NCBI GenBank assembly: GCA_944393485.1
Contig: CALYAJ010000012.1
Span: 1 to 42,733 of the forward strand
Length of the DNA: 42,733 bases
Origin: an uncultured Clostridia bacterium
GTDB lineage: Bacteria > Bacillota > Clostridia > TANB77 > CAG-508
Direction: 5' to 3'
Part shown: piece after piece, positions 8,974 to 17,271 of the stretch
How positions within the stretch are numbered: position 1 is the stretch's first letter
Layout of the letters: every line of letters begins with the position of its first letter
The notes under the pieces: generated by a model
Told to the model about the DNA's origin: nothing
The model's database searches: none
The model's input: the letters and a program-made list of their open reading frames with translations, nothing else
Program-made: the position numbers and the translations under genes

Positions 8974-9645
8974 ATGGCTAAGATATTAATTGTTGAAGAT
9001 GATAAAAAATTAAGAGATTAATTAAAAATATTTTTAGAAAAGCATGGCTACGAAGCAGTAATACTAGAAAAATTTGACAATACAATTGCTGAGGTATTAG
9101 AAAGTAAAGCAGATTTAGTATTGTTAGACATAAACTTGCCATATATTGATGGGGAATATATTTGTAAAGAAATAAGAAAAGTCTCAAATGTTCCAATAAT
9201 TATAGTAACTAGTAGAGATAATGAATTAGATGAGCTTTTAAGTATTAATAATGGTGCAGATCAATATATTACGAAACCATATAATATTCAGATTTTACTT
9301 GCAAAAATAGAAAGACTATTACAAAGAAGTAATACAAGCCAAGTAAATCAAGATAAAATAGATTGTGGAGAATTTGTTTTAAATATATCAAAGAGCATTA
9401 TAGAAAAAGATGATAAATCAATAGAATTAACAAAAAACGAATTAAAAATTTTACATTATTTAGTTTTAAATAAAGAAAAAATTGTTTCTAGAAATGAAAT
9501 AATGGATTATTTATGGGAAAGTGAGAACTTTATTGATGATAATACTCTTACTGTAAATATAAAAAGACTAAGGAATAAATTAGAAGAATTAGGATTAAAT
9601 GATGTAATAGAAACTAAAAGAGGACAGGGATATATATTAAAATGA
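8974..9645 (+). pseudogene. OmpR-family response regulator (BceR-like) with in-frame stop
   Basis: ATG 8974 begins MAKILIVEDDKKLRD, then codon 16 is TAA (9019-9021), and the same frame continues without interruption as LKIFLEKHGYEA to the end at 9645. Relatives have Glu or a similar residue at that place, so one base change (GAA to TAA) would explain it. The rest is intact: phospho-acceptor Asp about residue 52 in LVLLDINLP, Lys in YITKPY, and a winged-helix C-terminus (LTKNELKILHYLVLN, then LTVNIKRLRNKLEEL and TKRGQGYILK). The last codons overlap the kinase start (ATGA). Internal reinitiation would give only a domain lacking the phosphorylation pocket's acidic pair. A sequencing error is the main alternative. 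Confidence 0.85.
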
Positions 9646-10652
9646 AGTTTAGAGATTATTTGAAAGATAAATTATTATATGTAATACTTTTAATAGCATG
9701 TATTTTAAGTGTAGAAATATTACTAATACCAATTATAAATTATGTATATATAAAAATATATGTTGTAATAGTGCCGCTTATTTTATTTTTAATTCCATTC
9801 TTTATAGAATATTATAAAAAGAAAGAATATTATTCTGAAATTAAAGCTAGAGCAAATGAATTAGAAGAAAAATATTTAATAACAGAATTATTGCCAAAAG
9901 CTGATTTTATTGAAGCAAAACTTAATAAAGATTTGATATTAGATATTGGAAAATCAATGTTAGAAAATGTAAATAAATATAAATATATTCAGGAAGATTA
10001 TAAAGAATATATAGAACTTTGGATTCACGAAATAAAAATACCAATTGCAACAAGCAAGATGATAGTGGAAAATAACAAATCAGATGTTACAAAAAGTATA
10101 GATGAAGAGCTTGATAAAATAGAAAATTATATAGAACAAGCATTATATTATGCAAGAAGTAATACTGTGGAAAAGGATTACATTATAAAGAAGAATATTT
10201 TAAAAGATATAGTAAATAGTACTATTGTGAAGAATAAAACTACTTTAATTCAAAACAATGTAAAAATTGAAATGGATAATCTAGAAGAAGAAGTTTATAC
10301 AGATAGCAAATGGTGTATATTTATTTTAAGTCAGATTATTCAAAATTCTATAAAATATAGTAAAGAGCAAAACAAAGAAATAAAGTTATATGCCGAAAAT
10401 AAAAAAGAAAATGTAATATTATATATTAAAGATAATGGAATAGGAATAGATAAGGCTGAGATTGGTAGAGTATTTGAAAAGGGATTTACAGGAACTAATG
10501 GAAGGCAAGAAAAAAAGTCAACAGGAATAGGTTTATACTTATGCAAAAAATTATGCGATAAACTATGTATTGGATTAGAAATTGCTTCAGAAAAGAATAT
10601 AGGGACAGAAGTAAAATTAGTATTTCCAAAGAATAGTTATATAAACATGTAA
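9642..10652 (+). CDS. Intramembrane-sensing histidine kinase (BceS/YxdK-like)
   Basis: A 336-residue kinase. Two N-terminal membrane helices (about 11-31 and 36-57) are joined by only a few residues, so there is no extracellular sensor domain. The phosphorylated His is residue 129 in WIHEIKIPI, a sequence typical of BceS-type kinases. The ATP domain shows N-box QNSIKYS, G1 DNGIGIDKAE and G2 KSTGIGLYL. Known relatives sense antimicrobial peptides only through their partner BceAB transporter. Here that transporter lies 3.8 kb downstream, beyond an island of unknown genes. The upstream regulator gene is interrupted. Confidence 0.92.
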   Translation: MKFRDYLKDKLLYVILLIACILSVEILLIPIINYVYIKIYVVIVPLILFLIPFFIEYYKKKEYYSEIKARANELEEKYLITELLPKADFIEAKLNKDLILDIGKSMLENVNKYKYIQEDYKEYIELWIHEIKIPIATSKMIVENNKSDVTKSIDEELDKIENYIEQALYYARSNTVEKDYIIKKNILKDIVNSTIVKNKTTLIQNNVKIEMDNLEEEVYTDSKWCIFILSQIIQNSIKYSKEQNKEIKLYAENKKENVILYIKDNGIGIDKAEIGRVFEKGFTGTNGRQEKKSTGIGLYLCKKLCDKLCIGLEIASEKNIGTEVKLVFPKNSYINM

Positions 10653-10658
10653 TTATGA

Positions 10659-10731
10659 TTGACATAATACCAAGAATGAATGTATAATAGATAAGACACA
10701 AGTAATTAATAAATTCCAAAAAAATAGGAGG
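10659..10731 (+). promoter_or_regulatory. Promoter and leader of cassette 1
   Basis: TTGACA (10659-10664), an 18-base spacer and TATAAT (10683-10688), followed by a leader ending TTCCAA...AATAGGAGGAATGAA before the start codon. The same arrangement, with the same leader end, recurs at 11220. The ribosome binding site AGGAGG is at 10726-10731. Confidence 0.85.
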
Positions 10732-10740
10732 AATGAAGAA

Positions 10741-11142
10741 ATGTGTAAAGAATACGAAAAAGCGGACGAAGCACGTAGGGAGTACGAAGAAAACAGGAAC
10801 CGGTTAAGCAAAGCGGTTTCTAAAACGAACAAAGTTCTTGAGACAGCGCATCATAAAGCTGCGCTCATGCAGGGAACACCTTTTCTTTTGAAATTACTCT
10901 CCGGAAGAGTAGAGTACGACGAAGAAACAGAAGAGGTAATATTCTGCTATGAAATTTATAATGCAGACAGAACCTCTCTTCACGGAAAAGGTCTGCAGGT
11001 CTTTGTGGATTGGGAAAGTGCATTAAGGTATGCACTTGACTGCTCAGATCCGAGGCTTCCGGAAGATTTGTGTTCAGAACTACTTAAGGCTGTGGAAGAG
11101 TTCCGCTCAGCATATGTAAAATATGCTGAGCTTGATGATTAA
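10741..11142 (+). CDS. Hypothetical protein of higher G+C (cassette 1)
   Basis: A 133-residue acidic, soluble protein. Residues 1-40 are a charged, probably coiled-coil helix (KADEARREYEENRNRLSKAV). The middle has alternating strands (GRVEYDEETEEVIFCYEIYN), and the C-terminal part is helical again (LCSELLKAVEEFRSAYVKYA). I do not recognise the family. The first 60 coding bases are about 43% G+C by my count, against well under 30% in the flanking kinase gene, which points to horizontal acquisition. It has its own promoter and terminator. A perfect 11-bp hairpin lies in its last codons. Confidence 0.75.
   Translation: MCKEYEKADEARREYEENRNRLSKAVSKTNKVLETAHHKAALMQGTPFLLKLLSGRVEYDEETEEVIFCYEIYNADRTSLHGKGLQVFVDWESALRYALDCSDPRLPEDLCSELLKAVEEFRSAYVKYAELDD
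11105..11131. repeat. Perfect hairpin inside the 3' end of a gene
   Basis: GCTCAGCATAT (11105-11115), loop GTAAA, ATATGCTGAGC (11121-11131). It is an 11-bp perfect stem within coding sequence and 11 bases from the gene's stop, with no T tract, so it is not an ordinary terminator. It could slow 3' exonucleases or be a protein or recombination site. Confidence 0.85.
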
Positions 11143-11219: not shown

Positions 11220-11290
11220 TTGACATAAAGTTTGCACCGGGTGTATAATTGCCGAGAAGCACGTAGTATACAGTTCCAAAGAATAGGAGG
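11220..11290 (+). promoter_or_regulatory. Promoter and leader of cassette 2
   Basis: TTGACA (11220-11225), an 18-base spacer and TATAAT (11244-11249). The leader ends TTCCAAAGAATAGGAGGAAT, closely matching cassette 1, and the first codons (ATGTGTA) also match. AGGAGG is at 11285-11290. The shared promoter, leader and start suggest duplication of an expression cassette. Confidence 0.88.
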
Positions 11291-11297
11291 AATGAAT

Positions 11298-11720
11298 ATG
11301 TGTATAGAAGAATACAACGAGTCAATGGCTGATGAAAATATATTAAAAAATACTATAGAAGAATTAAATGAGTGTCTAGATAAAATTCGGATAGAAATGC
11401 AATCGAAGACGCTTGAATCTCCTTTATGGTTACATACAGAAGTTGAATTTAATTCAAATAATGAATTAAATTTAAAATTTCATTTCCATGAAGTAATTGT
11501 AGCTGAGTTCTATTCAGAAAAAGAAAAACGGGTTACAAAAACGATAAAAAAAGGAGATTGTACTCAAGCCGTTATATACAGAGAAGTGTTAGGATGGTGT
11601 GAGGATTTACAAATGCTAGTTGAAAAACAGGGAAATATAGTTTCAGATGCCAACAAAATCCATTTAAAAGACATTATAGAGAAATTTACTCTTATATGTG
11701 TAGACTTTTTATCTGGATGA
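11298..11720 (+). CDS. Hypothetical protein (cassette 2)
   Basis: A 140-residue soluble acidic protein, family not recognised. The order of elements is like cassette 1: N-terminal charged helix (residues about 14-35, TIEELNECLDKIRIEM), a central beta-rich part (EVEFNSNNELNLKFHFHEVI) and a C-terminal helical part. Sequence identity between the two is limited to the first few residues (MC.E). ATG 11298 is chosen because AGGAGG lies 7 bases upstream; ATG 11292 would leave one base. Its base composition is AT-rich like the chromosome, unlike cassette 1. Confidence 0.78.
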   Translation: MCIEEYNESMADENILKNTIEELNECLDKIRIEMQSKTLESPLWLHTEVEFNSNNELNLKFHFHEVIVAEFYSEKEKRVTKTIKKGDCTQAVIYREVLGWCEDLQMLVEKQGNIVSDANKIHLKDIIEKFTLICVDFLSG

Positions 11721-11797: not shown

Positions 11798-12009
11798 TTT
11801 ACAACACAACTAAATTGGAATATAATGTAAAAACATTCTACATACGTGGGAGGATTTTCAATTAATGCAGAAGAATTATTAAATAAAGAATTTGTATTTT
11901 TATTTATACATGGAAAGACGAATGTTTTGTTGAATATTTTCCTAAAATTGATGATGATATAATTTTGGACACATTGCTTACTAGAATTCTTCATAGTTTT
12001 GAAGAATGA
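11798..12009 (+). pseudogene. Decayed paralogue of the 13370 gene, with promoter remnant
   Basis: TTTACA (11798-11803), 17 bases, TATAAT (11821-11826) forms a promoter. AAAACATTCTACATACGTGG at 11829 then matches the intact gene's AAAACATTCCACATACGTTG (its KHSTYVG codons). A large internal part is missing. INAEELLNKEFVF (one frame) and then IYTWKDECFVEYFPKIDDD with a downstream LL...SFEE end (another frame) align with the intact paralogue's NKEYVFDIYVYDDNTFLFDW and following PKLDELDAALLLYY. The shift lies at the T tract near 11897. The frame closes with TGA at 12007-12009. This 354-base stretch between cassette 2 and the next gene is therefore a gene relic. Confidence 0.7.
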
Positions 12010-12010
12010 C

Positions 12011-12061
12011 GAAGACAAAGCCGGCATAATACTGTAAAAAGTGCTATGCCGGTTTTGTCTT
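12011..12061. terminator. Large hairpin, probable terminator between convergent units
   Basis: AAGACAAAGCCGGCATA and TATGCCGGTTTTGTCTT form a 17-base stem with one mismatch around a 16-base loop region. It separates the relic on the plus strand from the minus-strand gene ending at 12075. T tracts are short on both sides, so direction is uncertain. The GCCGG stem resembles the terminator at 13766. Confidence 0.75.
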
Positions 12062-12074
12062 AAAAAAATACTTG

Positions 12075-12548
12075 TTAACCACCTATATGTTTTTCCATAT
12101 ATGCCTGAAATTCAGGTATATCAGAAGAAAATGGCAAATATTCCAAAGTTTTGATATAAGTGCCTCCGCAACAAATGCAATGTGTTTCAAATATAACATC
12201 ACCTTTTTTGTATTTGTCTGTTCCTTCTATATATAAAAACTGGATTTCAGGATTTTTATATATAAAAGCAATCTTGGGTTTTAAAATCTTTCTTGGATTA
12301 TCCTTATTACAGGAAAAAATGATGCCTTCGGTGTATTCAATGTGTTCATTTTTAAAAGTATCAATTAAATACAATACTACATCGCCTTCAGAATTAAAAC
12401 CAGCAGGGCATTTTCGCCCACCTATACAAAAAACAGTTTCACCTTCTTCGTTGTCTTCATAACTTGGAACTTCAAAGCCCCAATTTTTAAAGAAACGTTC
12501 TAATGCTCTCCGAAACATTTCTTTATATTTTTCTTCAATAGGTTTCAT
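12075..12548 (-). CDS. Hypothetical protein, paralogous trio member 1
   Basis: A 157-residue protein, homologous by eye to the proteins at 12609-13091 and 13825-14277. Shared elements are an N-terminal helix ending FFKNWGF, a YTEGIIFSCNKDN strand, a NPEIQFLYIEG strand, a KKGDVIFETHC segment and a C-terminal IPEFQAYMEKHI helix. Where the other two have SCPKGxCTFE, this copy has HCICCGGTYI, keeping paired Cys but changing the spacing. GGAGGG precedes ATG 12548. It lies 60 bases after the 12609 gene and is probably co-transcribed with it. Function unknown. Confidence 0.8.
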   Translation of the reverse strand: MKPIEEKYKEMFRRALERFFKNWGFEVPSYEDNEEGETVFCIGGRKCPAGFNSEGDVVLYLIDTFKNEHIEYTEGIIFSCNKDNPRKILKPKIAFIYKNPEIQFLYIEGTDKYKKGDVIFETHCICCGGTYIKTLEYLPFSSDIPEFQAYMEKHIGG

Positions 12549-12608
12549 TTTTTTCCCTCCATTTTGTTGTGAAGATAGGTTAACAGTAACTATTGTTTTA
12601 GCATAAAA

Positions 12609-13091
12609 TTATGCCAAAGCTTTCAGTTGTTCTTCAATCCAAGCCTGAACCTCAGGGACTTTTGATTGAAGAACCATTCTGGATGACTCAAACGTACATC
12701 CACCTTTTGGGCATGAACGATGATATCTTATCATACCTAAAGGAATTTTCTTTTCGGGGATATCAACGAAATAGACATCCTGACTTTCCGACGTAAGATG
12801 CACAAAAAACTTTTTAGGTGTAAATGTATCATCTTCTTTGTTAAAGGTAAATACAATTCCTTCGGTATACTTGGTGTAGGTTTCTCTAAAATTAGTAGCA
12901 AGTAATCTTGCAGTAATTTCAGTTATGTCTGAGTTAAAAAAACACAGATAAGTGTTGTTACCTACTTCAAAAATTGGATCGCTGTCGTCATCAAGACCAA
13001 GAGTACGAACCACTTTGAAGTCCTCACTTACAGATGCGAAAAACTTTTCTAATTTTTTTCGCACCAATTCCCGTAATAGATAATTCATCAT
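12609..13091 (-). CDS. Hypothetical protein, paralogous trio member 2
   Basis: A 160-residue protein of the same unknown family: YTEGIVFTFNKED, SQDVYFVDIPEKKIPLGMIR, RSCPKGGCTFE (two Cys four residues apart) and SKVPEVQAWIEEQL at the C-terminus. AAAGGAGGT lies just before ATG 13091; ATG 13088 is also possible. A good promoter lies at 13135-13163. It is followed 60 bases later by paralogue 1. No signal peptide or membrane segment is present, so it is probably cytoplasmic. The paired Cys could bind metal or form a disulfide, which is inference. Confidence 0.82.
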   Translation of the reverse strand: MMNYLLRELVRKKLEKFFASVSEDFKVVRTLGLDDDSDPIFEVGNNTYLCFFNSDITEITARLLATNFRETYTKYTEGIVFTFNKEDDTFTPKKFFVHLTSESQDVYFVDIPEKKIPLGMIRYHRSCPKGGCTFESSRMVLQSKVPEVQAWIEEQLKALA

Positions 13092-13134
13092 TTTTTACCT
13101 CCTTTAAAGAGCAACGGTTTTTATTAACAAAACC

Positions 13135-13163
13135 ATTATATCACATAGATATTATAATAACAA
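13135..13163 (-). promoter_or_regulatory. Promoter for the 13091-12075 gene pair
   Basis: On the minus strand TTGTTA (13163-13158), a 17-base spacer and TATAAT (13140-13135). An inverted repeat, CAAC-aaa-GTTG on that strand, overlaps the -35 and may be an operator. Confidence 0.7.
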
Positions 13164-13293
13164 CTTTGTTGAACGTATCTAACTTAAGCGAAATATATTT
13201 TTATTATGATATAATTCTATTATAAAATATGAGATTGTTTTTTGTATAAGATCATTAATCTTTTACGTGAATTATTAATACAAAAATATAATA

Positions 13294-13330
13294 TTGCAAA
13301 AACTAACATAGCTATATATAATATCTATGT
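13294..13330 (+). promoter_or_regulatory. Promoter for the 13370 gene
   Basis: TTGCAA (13294-13299), 17 bases, TATAAT (13317-13322). An inverted repeat ACATAG (13306-13311) / CTATGT (13325-13330) spans the -10, so binding of a repressor is possible. The 278-base gap between the divergent genes at 13091 and 13370 holds only these two promoters and AT-rich sequence. Confidence 0.65.
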
Positions 13331-13369
13331 AGTAAGAAGTTCTAGTTGAATTATGAAAGGAGCAAATAT

Positions 13370-13747
13370 ATGAGTATAGACTTTCAAAAAGAAAAGGAAC
13401 GGATTGAATTAAAACATTCCACATACGTTGGAAGTATAGGAATATATATGGAATTTAGTGAAGGAATAGAAGATGCAGCATTTCAATATTATTTATATGA
13501 TGGAATTAGAAAAGAAGAAGCTGTAAATTTCATTCCTAGTATGTTTTCAAGCATAGTAGAAGATCAAATGAAGGACCAAAAAAGTTTAGAGATTGAAAGA
13601 AATTTATTTCGAATAAGTAATAAGGAATATGTTTTTGATATTTATGTTTATGATGACAACACATTCTTATTCGATTGGAATCCTAAATTAGATGAATTAG
13701 ATGCGGCGCTATTATTATATTATGCATGGATAAACTTATCACAATAA
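13370..13747 (+). CDS. Hypothetical protein; intact member of the family decayed at 11.8-12.0 kb
   Basis: A 125-residue acidic protein with no recognised family. Features visible: an N-terminal charged helix (DFQKEKERIELKH), alternating strands (STYVGSIGIYMEF; KEYVFDIYVYDDNTFLFDW) and a C-terminal LDELDAALLLYYAWINL helix. ATG 13370 is chosen because GAAAGGAGC precedes it. The gene stands alone between two minus-strand members of the paralogous trio. A broken, shortened copy of the same gene lies 1.4 kb upstream. Confidence 0.78.
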   Translation: MSIDFQKEKERIELKHSTYVGSIGIYMEFSEGIEDAAFQYYLYDGIRKEEAVNFIPSMFSSIVEDQMKDQKSLEIERNLFRISNKEYVFDIYVYDDNTFLFDWNPKLDELDAALLLYYAWINLSQ

Positions 13748-13765
13748 ATATATATTCCAAAAAAG

Positions 13766-13812
13766 TACAAGCCGGTACAAAAATCTGTATAAGATTAATG
13801 TACCGGCTTGTA
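13766..13812 (-). terminator. Terminator between convergent genes
   Basis: ACAAGCCGGTACA (about 13767-13779) and TGTACCGGCTTGT (13800-13812) form a 13-bp perfect stem. On the minus strand it is followed by ACTTTTTTGG, so it suits the minus-strand gene ending at 13825. It may also stop the plus-strand gene ending at 13747. Confidence 0.85.
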
Positions 13813-13824
13813 TTGGTTAAAGTG

Positions 13825-14277
13825 TTAACCGACTATCTGCTGTTCCATCCAAACCTGTAACTCAGGAATCTTGGAGTTAAGTTGGAGATCATCACATTCG
13901 AAAGTACAGCTACCTTTAGGACAAGACCTATAAAAAAGAATTTGTCCTTTTTTACGATTTTTCTCCGGAATATCATGTAAATACACATGCTGTGTTTCCG
14001 GATACTTATGAATCCTAATTTCAAGTGGAGTTAATTTTTTGCCAGCTTCGTTAAATTTGTTATAATAAAAAATGATTTCTTCACGATATAGATTGTATTT
14101 ATCCCTAGCTAAAGCTAAGAAAAATTTGCTATCATCATTTAAGAAGCTAGCAGTTCTTAAAGGGCCAATCTGAAAAAGAGGATATTCATCTGTAGATTCC
14201 TCTAATATGGAAACAGAGAATCCCCAGTCATTGAAAAAGATTTCTAATTCATTCCGTAAAGTTTCCTGTTTTGTCAT
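13825..14277 (-). CDS. Hypothetical protein, paralogous trio member 3
   Basis: A 150-residue member of the same unknown family: LEIFFNDWGFSVS near the N-terminus, REEIIFYYNKFNE, YPETQHVYLHDIPEKNRKKG, RSCPKGSCTFEC with an added third Cys, and SKIPELQVWMEQQI at the end. ATG 14277 is chosen because GGAGGT lies 7 bases upstream; the longer frame from 14301 would place the ribosome binding site inside the gene. It has its own promoter at 14322-14350 and terminator at 13766. Its promoter region abuts the operator of the ABC transporter, which is divergently transcribed. Confidence 0.82.
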   Translation of the reverse strand: MTKQETLRNELEIFFNDWGFSVSILEESTDEYPLFQIGPLRTASFLNDDSKFFLALARDKYNLYREEIIFYYNKFNEAGKKLTPLEIRIHKYPETQHVYLHDIPEKNRKKGQILFYRSCPKGSCTFECDDLQLNSKIPELQVWMEQQIVG

Positions 14278-14321
14278 GCTAATACCTCCATTTATAAACA
14301 ATTGTAGATTGATACAAAAAA

Positions 14322-14350
14322 ATTATAGCATGTTATTTAATTTATATCAA
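14322..14350 (-). promoter_or_regulatory. Promoter for the 14277 gene
   Basis: On the minus strand TTGATA (14350-14345), 17 bases, TATAAT (14327-14322). The BceR-like box at 14353-14366 lies immediately upstream of this -35, so a regulator bound there could act in both directions. Confidence 0.75.
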
Positions 14351-14352
14351 TC

Positions 14353-14366
14353 TTACAAAAATGTAA
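14353..14366. promoter_or_regulatory. BceR-like operator
   Basis: TTACA-AAAA-TGTAA is a perfect inverted repeat; with flanks it reads TCTTACAAAAATGTAAGA (14351-14368). It matches the TnACA-N4-TGTAA form known for BceR-type regulators. It lies about 20 bases upstream of the ABC transporter's -35, the usual activating position. Part of a further site, TTGTAAG, follows at 14372. Confidence 0.8.
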
Positions 14367-14447: not shown

Positions 14448-15215
14448 ATGGAAAAAGTATTAGAGGTTAAGAATATAGAGAAATACTATGGGAATAAATC
14501 AAACTTAACAAAAGCAATTGATAATATAAGTTTTGATATACAAAAAGGTGAGTTTGTAGGAATAATGGGAGCTTCTGGTTCAGGAAAAACTACACTTTTA
14601 AATTGTATATCTACAATAGATAGAGTAACCGCCGGAAAGATAGTTATAAATAATCAAGATATAACTAAGCTAAAAGGTAATAAATTAAATAAATTTAGAA
14701 GAGAAGAATTAGGATTTATATTTCAAGATTTTAATTTATTAGATACATTAACAGCTTATGAAAATATTGCTTTAGCACTTACAATACAAAGAGTAAAGCC
14801 AAAAGAAATAGAAACAAGAGTACAAGAAATAGCCAAGAAATTAGAAATTACTGATATCTTAAATAAATATCCTTATCAAATTTCTGGAGGGCAAAAACAA
14901 AGAGTTGCTTCAAGCAGAGCAATAATAACAAATCCTAAGTTGGTTTTGGCAGATGAGCCAACAGGAGCATTAGATTCTAAGTCTGCAAGACAATTATTAG
15001 AGAGTTTTGAAGATTTAAATAAAAAATTAAATGCGACAATTTTGATGGTTACACATGATTCATTTACCGCAAGTTATGCTAATAGAATTTTATTTATAAA
15101 AGATGGAAAAATCTTTAATGAACTTATAAAAGGAGATAGCACAAGAAAAGAATTCTTCGAAAAAATAATAGAAGTTCAAACTCTATTAGGAGGTGAACTT
15201 GGAGATGTTATTTAA
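14448..15215 (+). CDS. Bce-type ABC transporter ATPase (BceA/YxdL-like)
   Basis: A 255-residue ATPase. Walker A GASGSGKTT, Q-loop GFIFQDFNLLDTLTAYENI, signature SGGQKQRVASSRAI, Walker B LVLADEPTGALDSKS and H-loop MVTHDSF are all intact. The DFNLLDTLT stretch and the MacB-like length fit the antimicrobial-peptide transporters of the BceAB group. It overlaps the permease gene. Transporter plus YxeA downstream most resembles the Bacillus YxdLM-YxeA arrangement. It probably confers resistance to a peptide antibiotic and signals to the kinase at 9642. Confidence 0.93.
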   Translation: MEKVLEVKNIEKYYGNKSNLTKAIDNISFDIQKGEFVGIMGASGSGKTTLLNCISTIDRVTAGKIVINNQDITKLKGNKLNKFRREELGFIFQDFNLLDTLTAYENIALALTIQRVKPKEIETRVQEIAKKLEITDILNKYPYQISGGQKQRVASSRAIITNPKLVLADEPTGALDSKSARQLLESFEDLNKKLNATILMVTHDSFTASYANRILFIKDGKIFNELIKGDSTRKEFFEKIIEVQTLLGGELGDVI

Positions 15216-17271
15216 ATTATCATTTAAAAACATGAGGAAAACTATTAAAGATTTTGCAATTTACTTTTTAACATTAGCATTAGGAGTTGCAATCTTTTAT
15301 ATGTTTAATTCATTAGATAGCCAAGAAGCAATGCTACAAGTATCGAATTCTACAAGAGAGCTAATAAAACTAATGATAACAATGCTTGGTTTTGTATCTG
15401 TTTTTGTAGCAATTATTTTAGGTCTTTTAATTGTTTATGCAAATAATTTCTTAATTAACAGAAGAAAAAGAGAATTTGGAACATATATGTTACTTGGAAT
15501 GAGTAAAGGGCAAATTTCTAGGATATTATTAATAGAAACAATTTTAGTTGGAATAATTTCATTAGTTGTAGGATTAATTGTTGGTATATTTGCATCACAA
15601 TTTATGTCCATATTAGTAGGAAAATTATTTGCAGCAGATATGAGTAAATTTAAATTTGTATTTTCAAAAGGTGCATGTATAAAGACATGTATTTATTTTG
15701 CAGTAATGTATATTGCAGTAATGATATTTAATACATTTACAATTTCAAGATATAAATTAATAAATTTATTAAATGCATCAAAAAAGAATGAAAAAATTAA
15801 AATAAAAAATCTTTGGGTATGTATATTAGTATTTATTATTGGTGCAGTAATGCTAGGATATGCATATTACAAAGTAACAGGTGGAATTTCGGAATTATCA
15901 ACTGAAGAAAAAATGTTACCAGTTATATTAATGGGAATAGTAAGTACAATATTAATCTTTTGGTCAGTATCAGGATTTATACTTAAAATCGTACAATTAA
16001 GAAAAAATATTTACTTAAAAGATGTTAATATGTTTGTTTTAAGACAATTACACAATAAAATAAATACAACTGTTGTAAGTATGTCTGTAATCTGTTTAAT
16101 GCTATTTATGACAATAACAATATTATCATCAGCATTGTCATTAAATAGCACAATGAGAAGAGATTTAGAAGAAATGACACCAGTAGATATTAATTTATAT
16201 AAGACAGCTAATTTGCCAGAAAACAAAAAAATGTCAAAAGCTCAAATAGAAGATTCAAGAAAAACAATGGTTCAAACATTGGAAGAAAATGGTTTTGATA
16301 TGAATAATCTTAAAGATGTAGTAGAAATTCCAATTTATGCGACAAATGAATTAACATGGAAAGATACATTAAGTCCAGTATATGATGAAGTAAAAAAACA
16401 ATTTCCAAATCTTTTATATGAAACAGCAGAAGAATTAGTAAAAGTATCTGATTATAATAAAGTTGCAAGATTATATGGAACTACAGAATATAACTTAAAT
16501 GATGATGAATATGTAATTTTATGCGATTTTGATAATATGAAAAATCTTAGAAATCAAGCTTTAAAGGAAGATAGCACAATAACAATTGGTAGTAAAGAAT
16601 ATAGGTCAAAATATGATGAATGCCAAGAAGGATATTTAGAAATGGCAGGAAGCCATATAAATACAGGAATTATATTAGTTCCAGATAATTGTAATTTGAC
16701 AGAAGATATGAAGGAAGAAACATTCTTAGCTGCAAATTATAATGCAGATACTGAAGAAGAAAAAGAAGAAATAGAAAAGAATTTTACTGATGAAATGAAT
16801 TCAGAATTATATAAAAATTTAGAAGAAAAAGAAATTACAATAGATGGCATGACTAAAATTGCACTTATAGAATCTAGTTTAGGTGTATCAACAATAGTAT
16901 TATTTATAGCAATTTATCTAGGAATAATATTCTTAATTGCAAGCTCTGCAATATTAGCATTAAAGCAATTAACAGAAAGCTCAGATAATAAACAAAGATA
17001 TACAATTTTAAGAAAAATTGGTGCTGATGAAAAAATGATAAATGGAGCATTATTTAAACAAATAGGAATATTTTTCTTAATGCCATTAATATTAGCAATT
17101 ATTCATTCTATATTTGGAATACAATTTGTTCTAACTATGATGAGTGTACTTGCAGATTCAAAAGAATTATTACCATCAGTTATTGCAACTGCAATAGTAA
17201 TAGGTTTAGTTTATGGAGCATATTTTATGGCAACATATTTAGGAAGTAAAAATATTATTAAGGAAGAATAG
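15205..17271 (+). CDS. Bce-type ABC transporter permease (BceB/YxdM-like)
   Basis: A 688-residue FtsX-like permease. The N-terminus MLFKLSFKNMRKTIKDFAIY and the pattern of a TM helix, a helix group to about residue 310, a roughly 240-residue extracellular domain and the final three helices match BceB permeases, whose large loop binds the peptide antibiotic. NRRKREFGTYMLLGMSKGQI is the conserved cytoplasmic FtsX segment. ATG 15205 is used; TTG 15199 sits better behind AGGAGG (15188-15193) and would add two residues. It overlaps the ATPase gene by 11 bases, indicating coupled translation. Confidence 0.93.
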   Translation: MLFKLSFKNMRKTIKDFAIYFLTLALGVAIFYMFNSLDSQEAMLQVSNSTRELIKLMITMLGFVSVFVAIILGLLIVYANNFLINRRKREFGTYMLLGMSKGQISRILLIETILVGIISLVVGLIVGIFASQFMSILVGKLFAADMSKFKFVFSKGACIKTCIYFAVMYIAVMIFNTFTISRYKLINLLNASKKNEKIKIKNLWVCILVFIIGAVMLGYAYYKVTGGISELSTEEKMLPVILMGIVSTILIFWSVSGFILKIVQLRKNIYLKDVNMFVLRQLHNKINTTVVSMSVICLMLFMTITILSSALSLNSTMRRDLEEMTPVDINLYKTANLPENKKMSKAQIEDSRKTMVQTLEENGFDMNNLKDVVEIPIYATNELTWKDTLSPVYDEVKKQFPNLLYETAEELVKVSDYNKVARLYGTTEYNLNDDEYVILCDFDNMKNLRNQALKEDSTITIGSKEYRSKYDECQEGYLEMAGSHINTGIILVPDNCNLTEDMKEETFLAANYNADTEEEKEEIEKNFTDEMNSELYKNLEEKEITIDGMTKIALIESSLGVSTIVLFIAIYLGIIFLIASSAILALKQLTESSDNKQRYTILRKIGADEKMINGALFKQIGIFFLMPLILAIIHSIFGIQFVLTMMSVLADSKELLPSVIATAIVIGLVYGAYFMATYLGSKNIIKEE

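Follow-up and report, generated by a model that had tools for sequence, protein, structure and literature searches.

Orphan immunity genes carried as short divergent cargo are established for the rAID arrays of gut Bacteroidales (PMC12247911). These arrays consist of short divergent genes for small proteins; they are free of toxin genes, atypical in GC content relative to their host, variable among strains, co-oriented and accompanied by a tyrosine recombinase, and the published detection rule looks for short genes whose GC content is under 41% (PMC12247911). In Bacillota, the YezG-like/TIGR01741 immunity proteins are similar in size to the proteins described below, and for the cognate immunity proteins of T7SS LXG toxins an adjacent LXG toxin gene is expected. 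The BceRSAB peptide-resistance module is the third point of comparison, and a consensus, AnnTTACnAnnnnGTnAG, has been published for Bce-type regulators (PMC10858260). Here we describe a slot inside such a module. In the window (the whole stretch of 42,733 nucleotides analysed, from an uncultured Clostridia bacterium), it lies between the histidine kinase and BceAB and contains three genes of one family (A, B and C) together with three other small genes:

9642 to 10652, plus strand: Bce-type histidine kinase, which borders the slot on the left
10741 to 11142, plus strand: small slot gene of another family, 133 amino acids; GC3 0.381, the highest in the window
11298 to 11720, plus strand: small slot gene with YezG-like similarity (E 0.0017, below the Pfam cut-off)
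12014 to 12059, no strand: inverted repeat, probable terminator, downstream of A
12075 to 12548, minus strand: family member A, 157 amino acids, downstream gene of the B-A pair, with the hairpin variant HCICCGG; orthologue in G003 (L027:6144-6611)
12609 to 13091, minus strand: family member B, 160 amino acids, with SCPKGGCTFE; orthologues in G003 and G008
13135 to 13163, minus strand: promoter-like site of B-A, TTGTTA-17-TATAAT with extended -10, a consensus match only
13370 to 13747, plus strand: small slot gene of a third family, 125 amino acids
13766 to 13812, no strand: inverted repeat, probably a terminator in both directions, separating C from the 13346 gene
13825 to 14277, minus strand: family member C, 150 amino acids, with SCPKGSCTFE, modelled with AlphaFold (pLDDT 93); orthologues in G006 and G001
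14322 to 14350, minus strand: promoter-like site of C, TTGATA-17-TATAAT with extended -10; same layout in G006, G001, G011a and G008 (there with B)
14353 to 14366, no strand: BceR-like operator, a perfect TTACA-N4-TGTAA palindrome between C and bceA
14448 to 15215, plus strand: BceA-like ATPase, right border of the slot
15193 to 17271, plus strand: BceB-like FtsX permease, right border together with the ATPase

A sequence-only reading of this DNA had proposed that A, B and C are paralogs belonging to no recognized family. All three open reading frames are present as it described them; C starts at the ATG at 14277 behind GGAGG, while the mechanical ORF list begins it at the TTG at 14301. Pairwise identity is 26-39%, and the Smith-Waterman local scores (A-B, 126; A-C, 163; B-C, 245) all exceed the best of 500 shuffled controls (maximum 59, means approximately 30). 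Judged by these alignments, the three are homologous far beyond chance, and the proposed paralogy holds. Searches of Pfam, NCBIfam, PHROG and PADLOC, with single proteins and with all members known to us, return only scattered chance-level matches, never two members to one family, in agreement with the claim that they match no characterized family. A sequence-profile search of the PDB gives nothing better than E 0.38, and Rfam gives no match.

How widely is the family distributed? The host genome holds A, B and C only. Profile searches add 12 members, nine in the same genus (in seven other genomes: G001, G003 with two, G006, G008, G011 with two, G012 and G013) and three in two sister genera (G523, G596, G599). 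No further member was accepted from searches of the class (391 genomes), the phylum (398) and another Clostridia family (299), or from a pattern scan across approximately 85,000 species, and a scan of whole-species contigs recovers only four genus members, all already known; these negatives are bounded by genome sampling and by the sensitivity of the patterns. Some further matches at the level of the order are weak (E 1e-3 to 1e-2). One match in G423 (E 3e-4) was rejected as a member: it has an internal stop and sits in a transporter operon. In another genus, a 93 amino acid long ORF (L069:4489-4770) combines an N-terminal FF helix with a C-terminal SKVTKIQAWIEQQI; this stump, seen in L032 and L069 and carrying the C-terminal motif of the family, is possibly a member with an internal deletion. 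On these data, A, B and C belong to one undescribed family of small proteins, which appears to be restricted to this lineage.

The sequence-only reading took the differing central residues of the three copies as a sign of diversification. In a maximum-likelihood tree, A, B and C each cluster with orthologs from other species with strong support, and because each groups with its own orthologs, the tree indicates that they are old paralogs rather than a recent burst; what is seen instead of recent diversification of central residues is old copies under purifying selection. The shared motifs described there stand as a consensus, though several are absent from individual copies. FFxxWGF is found in A and C (B has FFASVSEDF instead), TEGI(I/V)F in A and B (C has REEIIF), and DIPEK in B and C only; ExQxxY and the C-terminal (I/V)PExQ(A/V)(W/Y) helix are present in all three. 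Across 10 representatives of the family, F14, E66, F70, P84 and Q96 are invariant, and L11, I89 and S135 are kept in nine.

An AlphaFold model, one of the checks proposed at the outset, is confident when built from the alignment of all 15 members (AlphaFold2 on C: pLDDT 93, pTM 0.86); a single-sequence model of B was discarded (pLDDT 48). The predicted layout is a helix (residues 3-16), an antiparallel meander of about nine strands and a second helix (residues 138-149), i.e., the members are predicted to be small soluble single-domain proteins. Foldseek finds nothing at E <= 0.001 in the PDB or among viral models (best E 0.12, PDB). The best VIA-align result, an OspA mutant with Z 6.9 over 73 residues, falls within the noise range stated for the tool, and the p32 and LolB-like rows of the same search (Z below 7, mixed unrelated folds) are indistinguishable from noise. 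The fold may be new, or it may merely be absent from the structural libraries.

The contents of the slot differ from one genome to another. It is empty in G005, G007, G009 and G012. In G003 a decayed stump of C remains, and in G004 only the other small families are present, C being gone and its terminator left behind. Other relatives carry one or two family members in the slot. Members outside the slot are solitary, flanked by housekeeping genes at unrelated sites in other species, e.g., in the glyS-trpS gap, beside rsmE or beside a transglycosylase. Within the window, the 13370-13747 family has a second, decayed copy, of which a remnant is left at positions 11820-12010 (a direct repeat, KHSTYVG region). 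Descent of A, B and C from the same ancestor as the other two slot families was considered and rejected (profile-profile probability under 1%).

The base composition of the family is foreign to its hosts. A, B and C have 31-36% GC, against approximately 26% for the whole host, and GC3 of 0.21-0.30 against a mean of 0.123; all six slot genes lie within the top eight GC3 ranks among the 49 ORFs of the window. Over the whole family, GC3 is 0.21-0.55, compared with means of 0.11-0.16 in the surrounding long ORFs, and it exceeds every surrounding long ORF in 14 of 15 cases; the exception is G599, whose three neighboring ORFs are themselves GC-rich. In L024, L021, L066 and L067 only the coding sequence has the high GC3, and the regions just upstream are AT-rich and host-like. 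These AT-rich upstream regions are not fully accounted for by a simple model in which an entire cassette came from a donor richer in GC. Elsewhere in the window, a 141 amino acid long ORF at 1331-1756 with no Pfam family has the fourth highest GC3 (0.26), and is possibly another foreign cassette.

Orthologs of the family genes give dN/dS of 0.21-0.34, against 0.03-0.07 for bceA compared between the window and relatives, values that, like the dS values below, are rough Nei-Gojobori estimates on short genes. The family genes are therefore maintained by selection and yet evolve quickly. The dS of C to its orthologs in G006 and G001 is 0.22, whereas that of bceA, one gene away, is 0.91 to G006, which suggests that C has moved between species. 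A GC3 well above that of the host in 14 of 15 cases, together with dN/dS of 0.21-0.34, gives the family genes the look of genes that were acquired horizontally and are kept by selection. Purifying selection as such would suit any other accessory role as well as immunity.

Which described system does the family resemble most? The slot shares with rAID its short, divergent, toxin-free and strain-variable genes of atypical GC content. It differs in that no recombinase ORF lies between 9642 and 17271, in having genes on either strand that are served by promoters and terminators of their own, in the lack of SUKH or any other known immunity domain, and in its host, which belongs to Bacillota rather than Bacteroidales. 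A, B and C do fall under the 41% GC limit of the rAID rule, yet they are GC-richer, not poorer, than their host. A, B and C give no profile match to the YezG-like family (PF04634), although their slot neighbor at 11298-11720 has sub-threshold similarity to it; the true YezG-domain gene of the genus is a conserved single gene elsewhere. An LXG-domain protein is absent from 14 genomes of the genus (a Bacillus subtilis control is positive), no LXG toxin gene lies in the locus, and the sole full EssC/T7SS locus of the genus, in G001, contains none of the slot families. No toxin gene adjoins any of the 15 members, and none of them matches a known immunity family. We assign the family to no known system because the LXG toxin is absent, the T7SS locus has no relative of these genes, and the recombinase and co-orientation of rAID are lacking; a role like that of an orphan immunity gene is the one we favor.

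We put forward, with a probability of about 0.38, that A, B and C are solitary immunity-type proteins of the cytoplasm that have no resident toxin. The homology, the confidently predicted fold, the foreign composition, the gain and loss, and the purifying selection are established; the immunity role is inferred by analogy with gut bacteria that carry short divergent immunity genes in arrays. That likeness had been suggested from the sequence: the gene gain and loss at the slot and its several small orphan families agree with it, and the lack of an adjacent toxin or antitoxin partner does not. The family appears to move between species in the form of stand-alone genes and to collect in the variable slot between bceS and bceA. 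Under the immunity scheme, the proteins would bind and block, in the cytoplasm, incoming toxins produced by competitors, with A, B and C types recognizing different toxins. The genes would be transcribed from their own promoters and retained while a matching toxin is common, and otherwise lost. C, which lies beside the BceR-like operator, may also rise when an antimicrobial peptide is sensed.

The position of C invites another explanation, namely that C (and B in G008, and the G011 copy) serves the Bce module as an accessory: operator-bound BceR would drive bceAB together with the divergent small gene, the product of which would help cells survive peptides that target the cell wall. The operator fits the consensus for Bce-type regulators (PMC10858260); the -35 of C is 2 bp away from it, and a similar -35 near the operator recurs in G006, G001, G008 and G011a. 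However, nearly every genus member examined has this operator in front of bceA, and because these include the insert-free G005, G007 and G009, it belongs to bceAB. A and B in the window do not adjoin it, and the members in G012, G011b, G523, G596 and G599 lie away from any Bce operator or module. The BceRSAB module borders the slot and supplies the operator beside C, but it occurs without the family, and the family without it, so that the two do not form one system. In addition, the response regulator adjoining the histidine kinase (8974-9642) has an in-frame stop at codon 16 here, where relatives have an intact protein of 223 amino acids; the stop could be either a true nonsense mutation or an artifact of assembly. 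Co-regulation with bceAB is possible for the copy nearest bceA but cannot explain what the family does in general; as an account of these genes we find the accessory explanation doubtful. Two perfect TTGACA-18-TATAAT promoters with similar leaders, at 10659-10688 and 11220-11249, precede two of the other slot genes.

It is rather unlikely that the genes are cargo of another conflict system, e.g., proteins that act singly against phages or plasmids, or one that works on behalf of a mobile element. Foreign composition, patchy distribution and the several small orphan families sharing the slot would suit such cargo. Against it, PADLOC and PHROG offer no match, and no relative is found among 50,697 phage and 72,556 plasmid records or in IMG/VR scans, the latter being limited by pattern.

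The sequence-only reading had defined the family by a paired-Cys motif, which would fit a metal- or thiol-binding protein. SCPKGxCTFE is found in B and C, where the pair sits at a predicted beta-hairpin turn, and 8 of 10 representatives keep the first Cys. The second is not conserved: among the 15 members, CX4C is confined to the B and C types, A has HCICCGG, the G011 copies lack both Cys, G012 and G013 lack the pair, and it is missing from the members that have diverged most. A single conserved Cys column is not the ligand set of a zinc ribbon or CXXC metal protein, and with one pair a stable zinc site would need a partner. The Cys pair is not the hallmark of the family, and metal or thiol binding through it is improbable. 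Still further down, the disfavored idea of antitoxins from a toxin-antitoxin pair can claim the small size and the tandem B-A arrangement, but B and A are two copies of one family rather than unlike genes and the remaining members are solitary with no conserved partner, which makes it very improbable.

If these are orphan immunity genes, the acquired interbacterial defense of gut Bacteroidales would extend to gut Clostridia with reduced genomes, the family would serve as a marker for locating the matching toxins, and a specific collecting slot would exist beside a peptide-resistance module. At minimum, the family is an undescribed one with a confident predicted structure. It is tempting to go further and regard the gap between the histidine kinase and the ABC transporter of Bce modules in this genus as a recombinase-free slot for acquired defense, in which unrelated foreign immunity families, one with a new fold, lie beside a BceR operator and some are induced by antimicrobial attack; we regard this broader scheme as a long shot. 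Near the same locus in relatives there is another small orphan family with no Pfam match (L026:7988-8305, L027:438-767, L028:9193-9537), whose members are 105-114 amino acids long and have GC3 of 0.32-0.42.
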